Origin: Rhodothermales bacterium | Lineage (GTDB): Bacteria > Bacteroidota > Rhodothermia > Rhodothermales > VXPQ01 | DNA: 64,000 bases | Reading direction: 5' to 3' | Assembly: GCA_951812345.1 (NCBI GenBank) | Contig: OX638295.1 | Coordinates: 1,894,965-1,958,964, forward strand | In this document: positions 47,906 to 57,656 of the stretch, piece after piece | How the letters are laid out: every line of letters starts with the position of its first letter | How positions within the stretch are numbered: the first letter of the stretch is position 1 | Program-made: the position numbers and the translations under genes | Notes under the pieces: generated by a model | Database searches by the model: none | Seen by the model: only the letters and a program-made list of their open reading frames with translations | Told to the model about the DNA's origin: nothing

Positions 47906-48838
47906 ATGTCTTTCAGAGATTTTCTCCAGAGCGAACGGTTTCAATCCTTCCTCACCGGGGGCGCAGCACAGGATATCTGGATTTCTGCGTTGCTGGTGCT
48001 GGGTGCGTTGATCCTGATATACGCCCTTCGGCGCCTGCTCGCGCGCTATATCGAAGAAGCGGACCGGCGTTACCGGGCGTCCAAAATTGTCGGGCGAATG
48101 CTCGGCCTGTTCACGGGTCTTGCGATTCTCTTTGTATGGTCGGCAGGGCAGGGACCCGGGCCAGCCACGATTCTCACGGTCGTCGGTGCAGGGATCGCCA
48201 TTGCCATGCGGGAAGTGCTCCTTTCTTTCGCCGCGTGGATCCACATGCTGATTCGCGCGCCCTATAAAAGCGGAGACCGCATTGAAGTAAATGGCTTGCA
48301 GGGGGATGTGATCGATATTCGCCCCCTGCACAGCACACTGATGGAGATAGGGGAATGGGCCGAAGCCGGTCAAAGTACAGGTCGCATTGTGCATATTCCG
48401 AACAACTGGTTTTACCAGTACGGGGTGTATAATTACACGCAGGGCTTCCAGTTTGTGTGGAATGAAATCCCTTTTACCGTCACCTTTCGTTCGGACTGGA
48501 AGGCGGCGCGCGATATCCTCTTGCAACTGGCTTCCGAAATGACCGGTTCTATAGAGCAACGGGCTCAGGAAGAAATCCGGGAAATGGCGCGTGAATACCT
48601 CGTTTATTACGAGGTGCTGACTCCATTCGTATATGTATGCGTAACGCAAAACGGCATCCGCCTGTCCCTCCGGCACCTTGCCGAAGCGCGGAGACGCCGA
48701 CAGATCAAACATATGCTCACGATGCGCGCCCTGGAAGCATTCCAGGAACACGGGGGCATCGAACTCTCGTACACAATGATCGGTTACGAATCCGGAGACG
48801 GTGAGCAAAAAAGAAGGGTAACAGAGGTGCTTTCGTAA
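47906..48838 (+). CDS. Small-conductance mechanosensitive channel (MscS family)
   Basis: A 310-residue channel protein opened by membrane tension, protecting cells in osmotic downshock. Two hydrophobic helices are followed by the pore helix and beta domain: LTVVGAGIAIAMREVLLSFAAWIHMLIRAPYKSGDRIEVNG matches the family TM3 and the start of the C-terminal vestibule, and HIPNNWFYQYGVYN follows. AAGG lies just upstream of the ATG. A single three-helix MscS rather than a large MscK is indicated by length. Confidence 0.9.
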   Translation: MSFRDFLQSERFQSFLTGGAAQDIWISALLVLGALILIYALRRLLARYIEEADRRYRASKIVGRMLGLFTGLAILFVWSAGQGPGPATILTVVGAGIAIAMREVLLSFAAWIHMLIRAPYKSGDRIEVNGLQGDVIDIRPLHSTLMEIGEWAEAGQSTGRIVHIPNNWFYQYGVYNYTQGFQFVWNEIPFTVTFRSDWKAARDILLQLASEMTGSIEQRAQEEIREMAREYLVYYEVLTPFVYVCVTQNGIRLSLRHLAEARRRRQIKHMLTMRALEAFQEHGGIELSYTMIGYESGDGEQKRRVTEVLS

Positions 48839-48864
48839 TTAAGGATCCAGTTCCTTGCATGTCC

Positions 48865-48893
48865 TTGCTTTTCACTGGTTCGAGGTATATCTT
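48865..48893 (+). promoter_or_regulatory. Candidate promoter of the trp operon
   Basis: TTG at 48865-48867, a 20-base spacer and TATCTT at 48888-48893 match the Bacteroidota -33/-7 pattern. The start site would fall near 48900, just before the leader peptide start codon. Confidence 0.5.
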
Positions 48894-48902
48894 ATGGCCT
48901 GT

Positions 48903-49001
48903 ATGATCGGACTACGTATACATAGCAGCATCCACATTCATGCCGGCGGCTGGTGGCGCAGGTCGCCGGACAGTGGGGGTCTCCCTGTACGCACGTCGTA
49001 G
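48903..49001 (+). CDS. trpL: trp operon leader peptide
   Basis: A 32-residue ORF, MIGLRIHSSI-HIHAGGWWRR-SPDSGGLPVR-TS, with two adjacent Trp codons (TGG TGG at 48951-48956) and a TAG stop at 48999-49001. An in-frame ATG at 48894 would add three residues but lies at or before the predicted start site. The peptide is a sensor of Trp-tRNA charging, not expected to have its own function. Tandem rare Trp codons in a short ORF just before an intrinsic terminator and trpE are the hallmark of ribosome-mediated attenuation. Confidence 0.8.
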   Translation: MIGLRIHSSIHIHAGGWWRRSPDSGGLPVRTS

Positions 49002-49063
49002 ATTGCCATGCCGACATGCTGCAACCCTGCTGTTCGCACAGAACAGTGGGGTTTTTTGTTTTA
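48970..49063 (+). promoter_or_regulatory. trp attenuator: antiterminator and terminator stems
   Basis: The 9-mer ACAGTGGGG occurs at 48970-48978 (strand 2) and again at 49043-49051 (strand 4), and CCCTGCTGTTC at 49025-49035 (strand 3) can pair with either. The 2:3 pairing is the antiterminator, 3:4 the terminator. CCCTGT at 48983-48988 can also pair with strand 2, releasing strand 3. Strand 2 begins 14 bases after the tandem Trp codons, so a ribosome stalled there leaves it free. Confidence 0.75.
49025..49061 (+). terminator. Intrinsic terminator of the trp leader
   Basis: An 11-base-pair stem (49025-49035 with 49041-49051, two G-U pairs) with a 5-base loop, followed by TTTTTTGTTTT. It lies about 110 bases before the trpE start. 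Confidence 0.85.
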
Positions 49064-49169
49064 CGTTAATTTCATGCCGCCATTCGATATCGACCCTGAT
49101 CATATCCTCCGATCATTGCGCAAACACACCCGGGAAAGCCGGATTGGCCGCCGCGCCATTCAATAAACC

Positions 49170-50654
49170 ATGTCGCTTGAAGACTTCATACGCCTTATTG
49201 ACGCCCATCGGGATAAGGGCAATCTGGTCGTGCCGATCTGCCGGCGCCTCAGCGCCGACCTTGTGACGCCCGTCTCGGCTTTCCTCGCATTCCGCGAAGG
49301 AAGCCGGTATTGTTTTCTGCTGGAGAGCGTCGAAGGCGGCGAGAAACTGGCGCGCTACTCATTCCTCGGAAAAAACCCGTTTCGTATTGTACGCGCTTTT
49401 GGTTCGCGTACGATCACCGAAGACGCCGATGGAACCGTTCGCGAACCGAAGGGGAATATTTTTGAGGTGATGCAGCGGGAAATGGACCGGTATACGGAAG
49501 TCCGAACAAACGGCCTCCCCAAGATCGCAACCGGTGCTGTGGGATATCTGGGTTACGACGCAGTACGCCTCGTCGAACGCCTGCCCAATGTACCGCCTGA
49601 CGACCTGCATATCCCGGACGCCATCTGGTGTTTTTACGATACGCTGGTCGCCTTCGACCACGTAAAACACCAGTTGGTCCTGATCTCCTGCGCATTCGTG
49701 AACGAAGGGGACGAGCCCGCCGACGCCTACTTCGAAGCATCCGGACGTATAGACGTACTGGAGGAAGAGCTTTTGGAAACCACCCTGTCAAAACCGGAAT
49801 CCATACGGATTACGCAGGAGAAAATGGACTCCAACTTCGAGCGGTCGGAATTCGAGGGGGCCGTTGAGAAGGTCAAGCAGTATATCTACGAGGGAGATAT
49901 TTTTCAGGCTGTGCTATCACAGCGTTTTTCCATGCCGTACGAGGGGGATCGCATCAACCTGTATCGCACGCTGCGACAGGTGAATCCGTCCCCGTATCTG
50001 TTCTATCTCGATTTCGACGATTTTTCGCTGATAGGCTCCTCGCCCGAAGTGCTTGTACGTATCGAGGGCGATACGGCAGAAGTATTGCCCATTGCAGGTA
50101 CACGACCACGGGGCGCCACCGAAGAAGAAGATCGACGGCTCGAAGCAGATCTGCTGGCCGACCCCAAGGAGCGTGCAGAACACCTGATGCTTGTCGACCT
50201 TGGCCGGAACGACCTCGGACGGGTTTGCCGGCACGGTTCCGTCAAAGTAGACAAGTACGCCTACGTGGAACGGTATTCGCATGTCATGCATATCGTGTCA
50301 TCGGTATCCGGCAAACTGGATCGCAGAAGAGGAGCAATGGATGTACTCGCGGCCTGTTTCCCGGCAGGCACCGTAAGCGGAGCGCCCAAGGTGCGCGCCA
50401 TGGAAATCATCGACGAACTCGAACCGTCCGCAAGAGGGCCCTATGCCGGCGCTGTCGGCCATGTGGATTATTCGGGCAACATGGACACCTGCATTGCTAT
50501 CAGAACCATGCTCGTTCAAAAAGATCGGGTCTACGTACAAGCAGGATGCGGTCTGGTCGCAGACAGCAAGCCGTCCAGCGAATTTGAGGAAACTGTCAAC
50601 AAGGCACGCGCTCTGAAAGAAGCGATCCTCCTTGCCTCAGAGGGATTGCTATGA
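49170..50654 (+). CDS. trpE: Anthranilate synthase component I
   Basis: A 494-residue enzyme that converts chorismate and ammonia to anthranilate. The N-terminal LLESVEGGEK carries the LLES element that forms the Trp feedback-binding site in known TrpE, so allosteric inhibition is expected. The catalytic half shows GDIFQAVLSQRF, NPSPYLFYL, IAGTRPRG, HLMLVDLGRNDLGRV and FPAGTVSGAPKVRAMEIIDELE, all conserved. It is first in the attenuated operon; its glutaminase partner trpG is three genes further on. Confidence 0.98.
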   Translation: MSLEDFIRLIDAHRDKGNLVVPICRRLSADLVTPVSAFLAFREGSRYCFLLESVEGGEKLARYSFLGKNPFRIVRAFGSRTITEDADGTVREPKGNIFEVMQREMDRYTEVRTNGLPKIATGAVGYLGYDAVRLVERLPNVPPDDLHIPDAIWCFYDTLVAFDHVKHQLVLISCAFVNEGDEPADAYFEASGRIDVLEEELLETTLSKPESIRITQEKMDSNFERSEFEGAVEKVKQYIYEGDIFQAVLSQRFSMPYEGDRINLYRTLRQVNPSPYLFYLDFDDFSLIGSSPEVLVRIEGDTAEVLPIAGTRPRGATEEEDRRLEADLLADPKERAEHLMLVDLGRNDLGRVCRHGSVKVDKYAYVERYSHVMHIVSSVSGKLDRRRGAMDVLAACFPAGTVSGAPKVRAMEIIDELEPSARGPYAGAVGHVDYSGNMDTCIAIRTMLVQKDRVYVQAGCGLVADSKPSSEFEETVNKARALKEAILLASEGLL

Positions 50655-50700: not shown

Positions 50701-51165
50701 ATGGAAATAAAACACCTTTTTCTGAACAAGGGGTGGGCAGGGAAAACCCTCTCCCGCGAAGAAACCACCGCACGGCTGAATCCCGTTATTCATTCTCATT
50801 GCGCACTGAACCATTCGCATGAATATGCAGTGCGTTCTCTCGAAGACCGGGATGCTGCCGAGGAACTGTCCGCGCTTCAAAGAACGGCCCGCATGGATGT
50901 AGGGAAACTGAGCGAGGTGGTACTCAGTGCGGGAGGCGTACCGTTCAACGGTACCGAGATGGAACCAGAGGATTTCGACCTCGGAAAATGCGACAGCGAC
51001 ATCGTGAAAGCGCTCAGAAATATGGAGAACGACTTCGAAAAGCTGCTCCATGCCGAGCTTGGCATAGAGCACCAGATGCGCACACGGGCCATCCTCGACG
51101 CTGTCCTGAAAAACACCCGTATGCGGCTGAAGTATGTACGAGAACTGGTTTTGCGGCATCGCTGA
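50701..51165 (+). CDS. Unknown helical protein inside the trp operon
   Basis: A 154-residue protein I do not recognise. It starts at ATG 50701 (MEIKHLFLNK), 46 bases after trpE; a longer frame from 50632 overlaps trpE. Four long amphipathic helices can be read (about residues 20-45, 50-75, 98-125 and 125-150), with HSHCALNHSHEYA in the first and LLHAELGIEHQ in the third, which is reminiscent of DUF2383/ferritin-like four-helix bundles but lacks a clear di-iron pair of ExxH motifs. No signal peptide. Its place between trpE and trpS puts it under trp control. Confidence 0.7.
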   Translation: MEIKHLFLNKGWAGKTLSREETTARLNPVIHSHCALNHSHEYAVRSLEDRDAAEELSALQRTARMDVGKLSEVVLSAGGVPFNGTEMEPEDFDLGKCDSDIVKALRNMENDFEKLLHAELGIEHQMRTRAILDAVLKNTRMRLKYVRELVLRHR

Positions 51166-51199
51166 TCTCTCCAGCCAACCTTTTGCTCCTGTCACACTC

Positions 51200-52252
51200 A
51201 TGTCTTCCGAACGCATCGACACATCTATGCCCTCCCCCGTTCTCCGCAAAAGCAGCGACGTGATCGTTTCCGGCATTCAACCGTCGGGCGCATTGCACCT
51301 CGGGAATTATTTCGGGGCGCTCCGACAACACATCCAGCTTCATGAAACACATGAAGCGTACTACTTTATCGTCAACTACCACACCCTGACGACGCTTCGG
51401 GACCGGGACAAACTGAGGCGCTATACACTGGATGTAGCGCTCGACTACCTTGCGCTCGGATTCAATCCCCAGGCCGCATACCTCTTCATGCAGAGCGACG
51501 TGCCGGAAGTCACCGAACTGGCATGGATTTTCAGCAACCTTGCCACGGTATCCCAACTGGAGAAAGGGGTGGCCTACAAAGACAAGATTGCACAGGGCTT
51601 ACCTGCAAATGCGGGCCTGTTTACCTATCCCGTACTGCAGGCAGCGGATATTCTGATCTACGGAGGTACGCTGGTGCCGGTGGGCGCGGATCAGAAACAG
51701 CATATCGAAATGACGCGGGTCCTGGCGGAACGGTTTAACCGTACGTATTGCCCGGAGGACGATCCGGTCTTTCCCGTACCCGAACCCTACATCCTTTCCG
51801 ACGTGGCGGTCGTGCCCGGACTGGACGGCCGAAAAATGTCCAAGAGTTACGAAAATGCGATCGGCATCTTCGAAGAAGGAAAAGTCCTGAAGAAAAAAGT
51901 GATGAGCATCGTGACCGATTCGACGCCGCTGGAAGCGCCGAAAGATCCGGAGCACGACAATGTATTTACACTCATCCGGCTGTTTGCCGACAGCGAAACG
52001 CGGGAACGTATTGCAGAGGCTTACCGCGCAGGTGGATTTGGATACGGGCATGCGAAAAAGGAATTGCTCACCCTCATCGACGAGCATTTTGCGGAAGCGC
52101 GTATCCGGCGCAAGGAACTGGCCCGGCACCCGGACGATGTCTTCGACATTTTGCGCGAAGGGGGCCGCAAGGCCCGGGAACGGGCCGGTGAATACATGGA
52201 ACGCGTACGGGAACACGTTGGGCTGATCACTACCTATGAGGCAGCGCCATGA
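51200..52252 (+). CDS. trpS: Tryptophanyl-tRNA synthetase
   Basis: A 350-residue class I synthetase charging tRNA-Trp. The HIGH-like PSGALHLGNYFGA and the KMSKS motif (GRKMSKSYENAIG) are intact, with PVGADQKQHIEMTR and DILIYGG typical of TrpS. The ATG at 51200 is chosen over 51134. It is inside the trp operon and its stop overlaps the trpG start as ATGA, so its synthesis is coupled to tryptophan enzymes. A rarely seen arrangement, since trpS is usually unlinked. Confidence 0.96.
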   Translation: MSSERIDTSMPSPVLRKSSDVIVSGIQPSGALHLGNYFGALRQHIQLHETHEAYYFIVNYHTLTTLRDRDKLRRYTLDVALDYLALGFNPQAAYLFMQSDVPEVTELAWIFSNLATVSQLEKGVAYKDKIAQGLPANAGLFTYPVLQAADILIYGGTLVPVGADQKQHIEMTRVLAERFNRTYCPEDDPVFPVPEPYILSDVAVVPGLDGRKMSKSYENAIGIFEEGKVLKKKVMSIVTDSTPLEAPKDPEHDNVFTLIRLFADSETRERIAEAYRAGGFGYGHAKKELLTLIDEHFAEARIRRKELARHPDDVFDILREGGRKARERAGEYMERVREHVGLITTYEAAP

Positions 52253-52863
52253 TTCTCGTCATCGACAACTATGATTCGTTCACATACAACCTCGTGCATC
52301 TCGTGGGACGCCGCACGAGCGACCTCGAGGTGGTGCGAAACGATGTGCTCGGTGTAGATGCCATACGTGATCGGGCGCCGATGGGTATCCTCATTTCGCC
52401 CGGACCAGGCCGCCCTGCCGATGCAGGTATAACGGAGGAGATCGTGAAAGCATTGGGACCCTCCGTGCCGATCCTCGGTGTATGCCTCGGACATCAGGCG
52501 ATCGGTGAGGTATACGGTGGACGAATCGAATACGCCCCCACGCTAATGCACGGAAAAACGAGTGAAATAGAACACGACGGACGAGGCATATTCCGGAACG
52601 TCAGTAATCCGTTCACGGCTACACGGTATCATTCCCTTGTGGTGGACCGTGCCAGGGTACCTGCCTGTCTGGACATATCGGCGGAAACGAAAGACGGTGT
52701 TGTCATGGGCCTGCGGCACCGGGAGTATCCGGTCGAAGGCATCCAGTTTCACCCGGAAAGCGTGCTGACGAACGAAGGGCCTCGTATCCTTGACAATTGG
52801 CTGGAAGAAGTGCTGGGCAGCACGGTGTATAGTGCAATGGGGAACCCGGCAATGATTTCCTGA
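52249..52863 (+). CDS. trpG: Anthranilate synthase component II (glutamine amidotransferase)
   Basis: A 204-residue glutaminase subunit delivering ammonia to TrpE. DNYDSFTYNLVH at the N-terminus, SPGPGRP, the nucleophile GVCLGHQAIGE (Cys79) and GIQFHPES for the His-Glu pair are complete. TrpG may also serve p-aminobenzoate synthesis, as no separate pabA is visible. It follows trpS with ATGA overlap and precedes trpD by 27 bases. Confidence 0.96.
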   Translation: MILVIDNYDSFTYNLVHLVGRRTSDLEVVRNDVLGVDAIRDRAPMGILISPGPGRPADAGITEEIVKALGPSVPILGVCLGHQAIGEVYGGRIEYAPTLMHGKTSEIEHDGRGIFRNVSNPFTATRYHSLVVDRARVPACLDISAETKDGVVMGLRHREYPVEGIQFHPESVLTNEGPRILDNWLEEVLGSTVYSAMGNPAMIS

Positions 52864-52890
52864 CCCGATCCATTCTCTTCCACTCGTATC

Positions 52891-53925
52891 ATGCAAGAAT
52901 ACCTGAATGTCCTCGCCGGCGGAGGTACGCTGCAAAGCGAAGAGGCCGAGAACGCAATGCGTCTGTTAATGGAAGGTGCATCGGAACCGGAATGCACGGC
53001 AGCCTTTCTGCTGGGTCTGAGGGCGCGTGGCGAATCGCTGGACGAACTGGTCGCCTTCACGAAGATCATGCGCGAATACGCCGTCCCGGTAGAAACCGGT
53101 GATCCGGAAGCCATTGACCTGTGCGGAACGGGTGGTGACGGCACGGACACATTCAATATCTCTACCGCCGCTGCTATCGTGTGTGCTGGCGCCGGGGTTA
53201 CCGTAGCCAAGCACGGCAACCGATCTGTTTCGTCGAAATGCGGCTCGGCGGATGTGCTGGAAGCACTCGGCGTGAAAACGGCGCTGGGTAAGGAAGGCGT
53301 TGAATACTGCTTCGAAAAAGCAGGCCTTGCGTTTCTGTTCGCCCCGTTCTTCCATCCAGCGATGAAGCACGTGATGCCCGTGCGCAGAAAACTGGGGGTA
53401 CGCACTTTCTTCAATATTCTGGGGCCTTTGTGCAATCCCGGTGGGGTGCGACGCCAGTTGACCGGGGCTTTCGATGAGCAAACAGCGAAGATCATGGCGT
53501 CCATTCTTGAGCGTCTCGGCGCCCGGCATGTCCTTGCCGTGCACGCGCGGGACGGACTGGACGAGATATCGCTGGGGGATGCAACGAGGGCGTTCGAAGT
53601 ACATGGAGACACACCTGTCCCGGACGGACCTGTAGAACGCCTCTTGCGACCTGAAGACCTTGGTTTCGCTCGCTGCGCCCGAAATGCGCTTGCGGGCGGT
53701 GACAGCGACGAGAATGCACGCATCGTGCAGGCGATTCTTGCCGGCGAGTCGGGACCGCGCCGCGATGTGGTCGTGCTCAATGCAGCCTATGCCCTGTCGG
53801 TTTCAGGAAAATTCGAGAACCTTGCCGCCTGTCGTAGCGCTGCTGAAAAAAGCATTGATTCAGGGATGGCGCAGGACACACTGGAACGGCTGACCCATGC
53901 TTCGCACACCACACCCGCCCCATGA
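52891..53925 (+). CDS. trpD: Anthranilate phosphoribosyltransferase
   Basis: A 344-residue enzyme joining anthranilate to PRPP. The PRPP-binding CGTGGDGTDTFNIST, the KHGNRSVSSKCGSADVLEALG segment and GPLCNPGG are conserved. It ends in an ATGA overlap with trpC. Not fused to trpG, unlike the enterobacterial arrangement. Confidence 0.97.
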   Translation: MQEYLNVLAGGGTLQSEEAENAMRLLMEGASEPECTAAFLLGLRARGESLDELVAFTKIMREYAVPVETGDPEAIDLCGTGGDGTDTFNISTAAAIVCAGAGVTVAKHGNRSVSSKCGSADVLEALGVKTALGKEGVEYCFEKAGLAFLFAPFFHPAMKHVMPVRRKLGVRTFFNILGPLCNPGGVRRQLTGAFDEQTAKIMASILERLGARHVLAVHARDGLDEISLGDATRAFEVHGDTPVPDGPVERLLRPEDLGFARCARNALAGGDSDENARIVQAILAGESGPRRDVVVLNAAYALSVSGKFENLAACRSAAEKSIDSGMAQDTLERLTHASHTTPAP

Positions 53926-54716
53926 CTATTCTCGACCGCATCGTAGCGGACACCCAGGACGTCGTGGCCACGCGGAAAACCGCTGTGCCGCGGGGGCAGC
54001 TTGAAAATATGGTGGGATTCGACCGGGACCGGCGCTCCCTCGAAGAAGTTCTGCGGAAAAACGGGCCTTCGATTATTGCCGAGATCAAAAAAGCTTCGCC
54101 ATCAGGCGGTGTCATCCGGGACACCTTCCGGCCGCTGGAGGTTTCCCGGCAATACGAAGCCGGTGGCGCGGTCGCCGTTTCCGTTCTGACCGAGCCTCAT
54201 CATTTTCAGGGCTCACTTGACGATCTATCTGTTGTCTGTCAATCCGTTTCTATCCCTGTATTAAGAAAAGACTTTGTTATCGACACGTATCAGCTCATCG
54301 AAGCGAGGGCCTACGGTGCGGATGCAGTGCTGCTGATTGCCGCCATACTTCACAAGACACATCTGCGGGACCTGTTGCAGGCCGCGCACGAATTGGATCT
54401 TGATGTACTGGTGGAGGTGTACGAGCCGCAAGAGTTGGACCGCCTCGATTTTGACGAGACACGCATCGTGGGCGTGAATAACCGCGACCTGCGCACCTTC
54501 GAAGTAGACATCGAGCATTCCATCCGGGTGTTTGCGGAGGTCCCGGACAGCGTGGTGCGCGTGTCGGAAAGCGGCCTTACCTCAGGGGCGGAACTGCGAT
54601 TTTTGCATGAACGCGGAATCGACGCTTTTCTGATCGGCGAAACCTTCATGCGATCCGAACGACCAGGGGATGCATTGGCAAGACTCAGGAACGAAGCGGA
54701 AGGAATCCAGGCATGA
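53922..54716 (+). CDS. trpC: Indole-3-glycerol phosphate synthase
   Basis: A 264-residue TIM-barrel enzyme. PSIIAEIKKASPSGG with the catalytic Lys, VLRKDFVIDTYQ, LIAAIL, GVNNRDLRTFEVD and SESGL mark the family active-site strands. Single-domain, unlike E. coli TrpC-TrpF. Its stop overlaps the trpF start as ATGA. Confidence 0.97.
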   Translation: MTILDRIVADTQDVVATRKTAVPRGQLENMVGFDRDRRSLEEVLRKNGPSIIAEIKKASPSGGVIRDTFRPLEVSRQYEAGGAVAVSVLTEPHHFQGSLDDLSVVCQSVSIPVLRKDFVIDTYQLIEARAYGADAVLLIAAILHKTHLRDLLQAAHELDLDVLVEVYEPQELDRLDFDETRIVGVNNRDLRTFEVDIEHSIRVFAEVPDSVVRVSESGLTSGAELRFLHERGIDAFLIGETFMRSERPGDALARLRNEAEGIQA

Positions 54717-55399
54717 CGACCAAACTCAAAATATGCGGCATAACCCGGCTGGAGGATGCCCGGTATGCTGCCGCTGCCGGCGCCGATTACCTTGGATTCA
54801 TACAGTATGCCGGCAGCCCCCGCTACATTGCACCGGAGCACGTGCGGGACATTGTCGAATGGATACATGGACCGCAGCCGGTCGGTGTGTTCGTGAATGC
54901 CCCTGCTGATGTGGTCAACCGGACCGCCGAAAAGGCGGGGTTCGCCTTTGTGCAGCTCCATGGCGAGGAACCTGTTTCCGATATCCTGCGCATCGAATGC
55001 CCGGTTATCAAAGCGTTCCGCATCGCTCCGGACACGACCCCCGACAGGTTATATCGCCTGATGCGGACATACGAGGATGTGGTAGCGCATTTTCTGCTGG
55101 ATGCGTACAACGACAAGGTATACGGCGGTAGCGGTCAGACTTTCGATTGGCATGTAGCGAGTTCCTCTGTGGAAGGCGCTCGTGAGCCGATCGAACAGCC
55201 CACTCGCCCCGGAAGCCCCGGTATCTTTCTCGCAGGGGGCATCCATGCAGACAATGTGGCCGAGGCGATCCGTACGCTGCGCCCATTTGCCGTGGATGTG
55301 TCGAGCGGTCTCGAATCGGCCCCTGGGGAAAAGGATTTCTCCAGAATCGACGCCTTTATGCAGGCATTCCGGTCCGTACATTCCGAACTCGAGACCTGA
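54713..55399 (+). CDS. trpF: Phosphoribosylanthranilate isomerase
   Basis: A 228-residue TIM-barrel enzyme catalysing an Amadori rearrangement. KICGITRLEDA with the catalytic Cys, the ADYLGFI strand, LLDA and a FLAGGIHADNV phosphate-binding strand are present. In most close trp operons trpB follows at once; here 227 bases with a repeat element intervene. Confidence 0.96.
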   Translation: MTTKLKICGITRLEDARYAAAAGADYLGFIQYAGSPRYIAPEHVRDIVEWIHGPQPVGVFVNAPADVVNRTAEKAGFAFVQLHGEEPVSDILRIECPVIKAFRIAPDTTPDRLYRLMRTYEDVVAHFLLDAYNDKVYGGSGQTFDWHVASSSVEGAREPIEQPTRPGSPGIFLAGGIHADNVAEAIRTLRPFAVDVSSGLESAPGEKDFSRIDAFMQAFRSVHSELET

Positions 55400-55403
55400 T
55401 TAT

Positions 55404-55630
55404 CCATAGGATACTCTGATCAAAACCGCTTCGCTCAGCACATCACGTTCGCAAGTACAGAACATTATGATTCCATCGTTGCAATCAGCGGGAAATACTG
55501 CGGATTCGGGGCGTCGCGGACGTGAAGCGCCCTTCGGGAGGCTGCGAGGGGTGCGGACTTAATCAGAGTATCCTAATTAGTGCGCGCGGTAGCGCGCATC
55601 GCCATACGGCACAAACAGAGTATCCTATGG
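55404..55630 (+). repeat. Terminal-inverted-repeat element, copy 3, with duplicated right end (between trpF and trpB)
   Basis: The main element runs 55409-55573, starting GGATACTCTGATCAAAACC and ending GGACTTAATCAGAGTATCC, flanked by TA on both sides. A second right-like end lies at 55616-55630, so that CCATAGGATACTCTG (55404-55418) is perfectly inverted there, including the trpB start codon. A hairpin TGCGCGC-GGTA-GCGCGCA (55581-55598) lies between the two ends. Confidence 0.85.
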
Positions 55631-56817
55631 AAAAAACACATCCCCTTCCCGACGAACGCGGGCATTTCGGGTTGTACGGCGGCGTGTTTGTGCCTGAAAC
55701 GCTTATTCCTGCCGTCGAGGAGCTCCGGAAAGCCTATGAAGCTGCTCGTAAGAACCCGGCTTTCCGGCAAGAGCTCGATACGATGCTCACCGACTATGCC
55801 GGACGTCCCACGCCGTTGACCTTTTGCAAACGGCTCACCACAACGCTCGGCGGACCAAAGATTTATCTCAAACGAGAAGATCTGTGTCATACGGGGGCAC
55901 ATAAGATCAACAATACGATAGGGCAGATATTGTTGGCGCGTCGTATGGGCAAAACGCGCATCATCGCAGAAACGGGGGCCGGACAGCATGGCGTGGCGAC
56001 CGCCACCGTTTGTGCACGATTCGGCCTGCATTGCATTGTCTACATGGGGGAAGAAGACGTCGAACGACAGCACCTGAATGTGCTGCGCATGCGACTGCTC
56101 GGCGCCGATGTACGACCCGTATCCAGTGGCAGCCGTACGCTGAAGGATGCTACTAACGAAGCCATTCGGGATTGGGTCACCAACGTACGGGATACGTTCT
56201 ATATCATCGGTTCAGTCGTAGGCCCGCATCCCTATCCGATGATGGTTCGTGACTTTCACCGGGTCATCGGGGACGAAACCCGACGGCAATTACGTGAGAT
56301 GGAGGGGCGCTCTGCGCCAGATGCGGTGGTGGCCTGTGTGGGCGGCGGCTCGAATGCAATCGGGCTTTTTTATGCCTTCCTGAAGGATCCAAATGTACAG
56401 CTCTATGGCGTGGAGGCTGCCGGCGAAGGATTGAACGGCCGACATGCGGCCACCCTTACGCAAGGTTCGCCGGGCATTCTGCATGGAGCCATGAGCTATC
56501 TGTTACAGGACGAAGATGGACAGGTGCAACTCGCGCATTCTATCTCGGCGGGACTGGACTACCCGGGGGTAGGACCGGAACATGCCTGGCTGCGGGATAC
56601 GGGACGCGTGCATTATGCCTCCGCAACGGATGCCGAAGCCATCGAGGGGGTAAAACTGTTGTCGAAAACGGAAGGGATCATTCCAGCTCTGGAGACCGCA
56701 CATGCCATAGGCTGGCTGCCTGAAGGAATACGCGGCATGGCGCACAATGAAGTAGTTGTTGTCAATTGCTCCGGGCGTGGCGACAAGGATATGGGTACGA
56801 TCGCAAAGCACCTCTGA
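55627..56817 (+). CDS. trpB: Tryptophan synthase beta subunit
   Basis: A 396-residue PLP enzyme that condenses indole with serine. The PLP lysine lies in [13 protein letters not shown], with [12 protein letters not shown] and the phosphate-binding [12 protein letters not shown]. The start at ATG 55627 ([15 protein letters not shown]) fits the family; the longer frame from 55522 reads the repeat element. The start codon lies inside an inverted-repeat end, CAGAGTATCCTATGG. Confidence 0.97.
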
Positions 56818-56822
56818 AAACC

Positions 56823-57656
56823 ATGCAACGACTTCAGGAAAAGCTGGCGGCCTGCATACAACGTGGCGACAAAGCCATGGGCTTGTTTATGACCAGTGGC
56901 TTCCCCGACCCCGAAAGTACGCTTCCTGTCCTGCGCGAGATGGATCGGGGGGGCGCCGATTTCATCGAACTCGGTATGCCCTTCAGCGATCCGCTGGCGG
57001 AGGGGTTGCCTATCCAACGCTCAAGCGAACGAGCCCTGCAAGCCGGCGTGCGTATGAAGGATACCTTCCGCACAGCAGCCGCCTTCTGTGCCGAAAGCAA
57101 CACCCCCCTCCTTCTGATGGGATATGCCAACCCGATCCACCAATACGGCATTGCTGCATTCTGCAGGGACGCGCGCAACGCTGGAATAGAGGGGTTTATT
57201 CTCGCTGACGTACCCCTTGAAGAACATCTTCCCTTTGCGGGCGAGGCTGCAGCCAGCGGACTGGGACTGGTTCACCTGATTGCCCCGAATACCCCTGACG
57301 AACGCATTCGGGAGATCGATAGAGCCACGACAGCGTTTGTGTATGCAGTATCCATAACGGGATTGACCGGCTCGGGCCTCGGCGCCATCGAACACGTGGA
57401 AACCTATCTGAAGCGCGCGCGAAGCATGGTGCGCACACATCCCCTGCTGGCCGGATTCGGTATCAGAACCCATGAGGACGCGGTACGCCTGAGCCGTCAT
57501 ACCGACGGGTTCATTGTCGGGTCGGCACTGATCGAAAAGGTGGAAACACTGTGGAATCATGAATCTAAACCCCCAAAAACACACTATGAAGAAATTCGCC
57601 GCTTCGTACGTGCCCTGAAGAACGGCGACAAGGGTGCAGAGGAAGAGAACCCATAG
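56823..57656 (+). CDS. trpA: Tryptophan synthase alpha subunit
   Basis: A 277-residue TIM-barrel partner of trpB that releases indole from indole-3-glycerol phosphate. The catalytic Glu is in DFIELGMPFSDPLAEG and the Asp in GFILADVPLEE; YAVSITGLTGSG and GFGIRTHED complete the phosphate site. The start at 56823 (MQRLQEKL) follows trpB by 5 bases and is the last trp gene. Confidence 0.97.
   Translation: MQRLQEKLAACIQRGDKAMGLFMTSGFPDPESTLPVLREMDRGGADFIELGMPFSDPLAEGLPIQRSSERALQAGVRMKDTFRTAAAFCAESNTPLLLMGYANPIHQYGIAAFCRDARNAGIEGFILADVPLEEHLPFAGEAAASGLGLVHLIAPNTPDERIREIDRATTAFVYAVSITGLTGSGLGAIEHVETYLKRARSMVRTHPLLAGFGIRTHEDAVRLSRHTDGFIVGSALIEKVETLWNHESKPPKTHYEEIRRFVRALKNGDKGAEEENP

Follow-up and report, generated by a model that had tools for sequence, protein, structure and literature searches.

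The window, a stretch of 64,000 nucleotides of a Rhodothermales genome, contains a tryptophan operon that runs from trpE to trpA and is preceded by a leader region (Table 1). An MscS-like gene on the same strand ends at 48838, just upstream of this leader. NCBIfam matches indicate genes for the complete Trp pathway in the operon, together with trpS, the gene for the tryptophanyl-tRNA synthetase, which also follows trpE in most relatives tested. As trpS lies within the operon, the synthetase that charges the sensed tRNA would itself be under the control of an attenuator in the leader. Between trpE and trpS lies a gene for a protein of about 155 amino acids that is kept 3' of trpE in most order loci tested, with 38-88% identity, and for which no Pfam family was found above cut-off.

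By direct reading of the sequence, every element listed in the original prediction was found at its position, that is, a 32-codon ORF with tandem TGG codons, a duplicate 9-mer, a terminator with a T tract and a TTG-N20-TATCTT promoter. The latter reads TTGCTT-N17-TATCTT from 48865 to 48893 and was not reported under the stricter sigma-70 rule of the promoter search, though both boxes are visible. The leader ORF extends from an ATG at 48903 to a TAG stop codon at 48999-49001. A second in-frame ATG is located upstream at 48894, adjoining the -10 box, and is probably not the start in use. The sequence ACAGTGGGG occurs twice, at 48970-48978 and at 49043-49051, and each copy is able to pair with 49025-49033. 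In this leader, the first copy, designated strand 2, begins 14 nt 3' of the last TGG. The terminator is composed of AACCCTGCTGTTC-GCACA-GAACAGTGGGGTT, a 13-bp stem followed by Ts, and it is the sole terminator-like site found in 48600-49300, for which shuffled sequences gave a mean of 0.5.

Table 1. Features of the trp leader and operon (positions in the window)
Feature	Position	Strand	Basis or remark
-35 element TTGCTT of the trp leader promoter	48865..48870	+	TTG-to-TAnnnT spacing kept in order leaders
-10 element TATCTT	48888..48893	+	box position recurrent in 56/59 leaders
Putative transcription start	48899..48903	+	no more than about 4 nt from the leader ATG; from the -10 position
Leader peptide ORF, 32 codons, MIGLRIHSSIHIHAGGWWRRSPDSGGLPVRTS	48903..49001	+	58 other leaders have a Trp-rich ORF
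Tandem Trp codons TGG TGG (candidate sensor)	48951..48956	+	direct reading
Strand 2, antiterminator 5' arm ACAGTGGGG, within the ORF	48970..48978	+	duplex against shuffles; swap test
Strand 3 AACCCTGCTGTTC, common to antiterminator and terminator	49023..49035	+	terminator search, duplex, folding
Strand 4 GAACAGTGGGGTT, terminator 3' arm	49041..49053	+	13 pairs; dG -19.8 kcal/mol
T tract of the intrinsic terminator	49052..49057	+	direct reading
trpE, anthranilate synthase component I, first regulated gene	49170..50654	+	TIGR00564 above cut-off
Conserved operon protein of unknown function	50701..51165	+	follows trpE in the order
trpS, tryptophanyl-tRNA synthetase, start uncertain	51134..52252	+	TIGR00233 above cut-off
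trpG, trpD, trpC, trpF, trpB, trpA	52249..57656	+	NCBIfam matches

The leader among relatives

The trpE gene was located in 54 of 60 related genomes, and the regions upstream of it were read at 50 loci of the order and 20 from the rest of the class, as well as at L031, L032 and L161. A Trp-rich leader ORF accompanied by a terminator and an antiterminator strand was observed in 36 of the 50 order regions and in all 20 regions taken from other parts of the class. The order ORFs carry WW, WWW or W.W, with the exception of L012 in which the two Trp codons are further apart. In the combined set of 59 leaders, which come from 19 groups, WW or WWW is present in 56 leader peptides; these are otherwise divergent in sequence and the order of the strands is constant. 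Judged from sequence, the trp attenuator thus appears to be conserved across the class Rhodothermia. Salinibacter ruber and Rhodothermus marinus (G018, G021) presumably have it too.

The attenuator is absent from 11 of the 50 order loci, two of them from the genus of the window (L004, L005) and nine from other genomes, and the element is therefore dispensable. In L004 and L005, trpE lies directly 3' of the MscS-like gene. The same arrangement without attenuator, next to what is apparently the same gene, was noticed in L016, L117, L118 and L123; the identity of the gene was confirmed by tblastn in L004, L005 and L016 and judged by eye in the three others. This looks like repeated loss at one gene junction.

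A related terminator that lacks a WW or W.W leader ORF was found in L017, L020 and L022, which belong to one family. By eye, the leader ORFs of L017 and L022 have just one Trp each (MVKHYISPVVNWQRLPTT for L017) and keep the promoter spacing of the leaderless type, and L020 looks degenerate. In the same way, inspection by eye of five loci from one genus (L013, L014, L015, L018, L019) revealed no terminator and a conserved TGCGTATAAG-like motif shortly 5' of trpE, possibly a promoter adjoining this gene.

Pairing of the leader strands

In the window, the duplex of strand 2 with strand 3 was stronger than in shuffled sequences, with p = 0.006 for the left arm of the terminator alone and p = 0.015 for an extended strand 3. 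In 27 of the 36 order leaders, strand 3 pairs more strongly than in dinucleotide shuffles (p <= 0.05) with the stretch that separates the last Trp codon from the terminator. When one leader per family, picked by list order, was retained, the combined Fisher p was about 5e-13.

Co-variation was measured without alignment by exchanging strands among 19 family representatives. This swap test was used in place of a covariance model because the loops are too variable and because it answers the same question. For the antiterminator, own strands gave a mean of -20.8 kcal/mol vs -15.5 kcal/mol with strands of other families, and for the terminator arms the values were -18.9 and -12.5 kcal/mol for own and foreign strands, with a permutation p of about 2e-4 in each case. 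Comparison with relatives had been proposed as a check on the original prediction, and the leaders compared do hold both the Trp codons and the co-varying helices. Together with the Trp-rich peptides and the constant strand order, they bear out its central proposal of leader-peptide attenuation of the trp operon.

The spacing of the strands was also found to be regular. In leaders of the class, the first paired base of strand 2 mostly lies 9-16 nt 3' of the last TGG and the leader stop codon usually ends 33-45 nt 3' of it. A ribosome that has stalled at the last TGG is expected to have its front edge where strand 2 begins. Strand 2 had been placed inside the leader ORF in the window, correctly so, and this location is the rule across the class.

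Folding gave the two states that had been predicted, as RNA 48970-49044, downstream of a stalled ribosome and reaching to strand 4, folds as the 2:3 helix and the longer RNA 48970-49060 as the 3:4 terminator. Since the longer RNA adopts the terminator, the latter would be the stable end state and the antiterminator would have to form first, as in E. coli. In the stalled fold, at least 5 bases of strand 3 are paired in 58 of the 59 leaders, but about 40-80% of shuffles also attain 5 pairs and the counts of paired bases are weakly above them. For this reason the stalled-fold count was not used as evidence, and support for the antiterminator comes from the duplex energies and the swaps.

In the window, the region of the Trp codons folds into a local hairpin. 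In the leaders of relatives, pairing of strand 2 with an upstream strand 1, located 5' of the Trp codons, was not above shuffles. The suggestion that 48983-48988 acts as a local substitute for strand 1 was not supported, as the hairpin reaches 4 bp at best.

The position of the MscS-like gene, on the same strand and just upstream of the terminator, raises the question of whether this terminator simply ends the MscS-like transcript or is constitutive, in which case the WW ORF and the strand duplication would be coincidental; its absence in some relatives would suit such a dispensable terminator. However, a promoter lies between the MscS-like gene and the terminator, the Trp-codon ORF, strand 2 and terminator co-occur in 59 differing leaders of which many have another upstream gene, and the complementarity of strands 2 and 3 goes far beyond shuffles. 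We therefore consider this explanation highly improbable compared with attenuation by a leader peptide.

Start of the leader peptide

That the leader ORF apparently has a leaderless start had escaped the original prediction. For the order leaders, the start codon was set to the closest ATG lying seven or more codons ahead of the first Trp, a rule that does not presuppose a promoter box. With this rule, a TAnnnT box was found to end 6-10 nt 5' of the start codon in 34 of the 36 order leaders. In nearly all of those having the box, a TTG is located 20 or 21 nt before it. In the whole set, in which the start codons of 23 later-added loci were chosen by eye with the box in view, the interval from the end of the box to the start codon is 5-10 nt in 56 of 59 leaders, vs 31 of 348 control windows with a box so placed. 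In Streptomyces lividans, the mean distance from the -10 box to the transcription start is 6.3 nt (PMC8079986). A sigma-70 promoter of such geometry starts about 5-9 nt past the -10 box, which would place the start of the RNA at the AUG or a few nt away from it. As far as promoter geometry can tell, the mRNA from which the leader peptide is translated is thus probably leaderless or nearly so.

Alternatively, the same attenuator could be part of an ordinary mRNA that has a 5' UTR, in which case the TAnnnT box close to the ATG would not be the working -10 element. L165 shows such a layout: its -10 box sits a long way 5' of the ATG, which is preceded by the purine run AAAGGGG, and the leaderless form is therefore not found in every leader. 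In RF01692 leaders of the flavobacterial type, the distance from TAnnTTTG to the ATG is mostly about 17-20 nt. Against this stand the recurrent TTG and TAnnnT spacing described above and the lack, in the leaders compared, of any other conserved TAnnnT box placed so as to leave a 5' UTR. A leadered transcript is accordingly rather unlikely, and a start at or close to the AUG is preferred.

A stronger version of the leaderless reading can be formulated, in which the attenuator of Rhodothermia works obligatorily via leaderless mRNA as the class-wide default, within a phylum whose mRNAs are rarely leaderless in other respects. The ribosome would load on the 5' AUG once this is free of RNA polymerase, which would synchronise translation and transcription without a strand 1:2 pause hairpin. 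This proposal is tentative and we hold it to be rather doubtful.

Leaderless mRNAs were reported to represent 3.7% in Bacteroides and 5.5% in Flavobacterium (PMC7366714, PMC9723704). In the genome of the window, the pattern TATCTT-N6-9-ATG has 56 matches vs 36 for the reversed pattern. When 30 matches were inspected for other leaderless starts, a single one had a properly spaced TTG and it was not a leader peptide. Recurring GGTTAAC repeats around TATCTT, ending in GGTTAACATG, were observed in six genomes (G007, G021, G031, G040, G052, G057), which is suggestive of a further leaderless gene whose promoter is overlapped by an operator. Finally, in three flavobacterial-type Bacteroid-trp leaders (L191, L193, L194) the promoter box lies merely 4-7 nt before the leader ATG, and leaderless trp leaders may occur in other Bacteroidota too.

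Attenuation model and known trp leaders

The locus presents the features of leader-peptide attenuators: an ORF with consecutive Trp codons before trp genes, an intrinsic terminator between this ORF and the first gene, and an antiterminator that, according to duplex, swap and folding analyses, is exclusive with the terminator and would be left free by a ribosome stalled at the Trp codons. We propose that a ribosome-mediated attenuator governs the trpE to trpA operon and that its leader peptide is probably read from leaderless or nearly leaderless RNA, a reading to which we assign a probability of about 0.93. RNA polymerase would start at or next to the leader AUG, so that the peptide would be made from this RNA. 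When charged tRNA-Trp is scarce, the ribosome would stall at the tandem Trp codons with its leading edge just before strand 2. Strand 2, being free, would pair with strand 3 ahead of the synthesis of strand 4, and the operon would be transcribed as no terminator forms. When Trp is plentiful, the ribosome would cover strand 2 and reach the stop codon, strand 3 would pair with strand 4, and the 3:4 terminator thus formed would end transcription at the T tract.

In other phyla, trp genes are found under the control of T-box or TRAP elements. As the terminator/antiterminator pair sits in a trp leader, a T-box, a TRAP-type site or a riboswitch could act on the same terminator. Nevertheless, an Rfam scan of the window, at the gathering score as well as at E <= 10, gave no relevant family, T-box included, and only unrelated weak matches fell in the region. 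Moreover, the Trp codons are placed at a nearly fixed distance before strand 2, a spacing that none of these mechanisms needs. Control by another RNA element is accordingly regarded as highly improbable, and ribosome-mediated attenuation is retained.

Attenuators of this kind had been described in the original prediction as best known from Proteobacteria and Actinobacteria. This is fair, but a Bacteroidota class is already known and is represented by the Rfam family RF01692, Bacteroid-trp (PMC2864571). RF01692 shares with the present leaders the phylum, the association with trp genes, a short WWW ORF and a terminator 3' of it, whereas most RF01692 leaders have longer 5' UTRs. Its model matched neither the window nor any of the 60 order relatives; across the phylum it matched 10 of 118 genomes, all from one family. 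In the same way, RF00513 (Trp_leader) had no match in the window or the 60 order genomes, with E. coli positive as a control. The E. coli attenuator resembles the present one by its tandem Trp codons, a strand 2 slightly more than 10 nt further on, exclusive 2:3 and 3:4 helices and an intrinsic terminator before trpE. On the contrary, strand 2 follows the stop codon in E. coli and lies inside the ORF here, where no 1:2 hairpin is supported and the leader mRNA is apparently leaderless.

Leaderless trp leaders have been described in other lineages. In Sinorhizobium meliloti, the attenuator RNA trpL/rnTrpL begins at the trpL ATG (PMC7298713); this lineage is unrelated, the peptide has 14 amino acids, and the start site and trans activity are experimental there, while the start is deduced from promoter position here. 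In Streptomyces lividans, trpL1 encodes a leaderless leader peptide with WWW (MFAHSTRNWWWTAHPAAH) and is followed by a terminator before trpE (PMC8079986). It and other actinobacterial attenuators (PMC1262725) share the Trp-rich leader and the terminator before trpE, but they belong to another phylum, with a monocistronic trpE and a different conserved strand core. In a literature search that covered papers readable without subscription, no description of a trp attenuator from Rhodothermus or Salinibacter was found.

The mechanism proposed here is classic; what is new is its lineage-wide form, which was not caught by either of the two Rfam trp leader models. It would extend leader-peptide attenuation, in an apparently leaderless version, across a whole class of Bacteroidota. 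The probable presence of the attenuator in Salinibacter ruber and Rhodothermus marinus makes it testable in cultured strains. Considering that leaderless mRNAs are rare in Bacteroides and Flavobacterium (about 4-6%), a conserved leaderless regulatory ORF would provide a clear case for ribosome start on leaderless RNA. If true, it suggests that synchrony between ribosome and polymerase may be possible without a pause hairpin.
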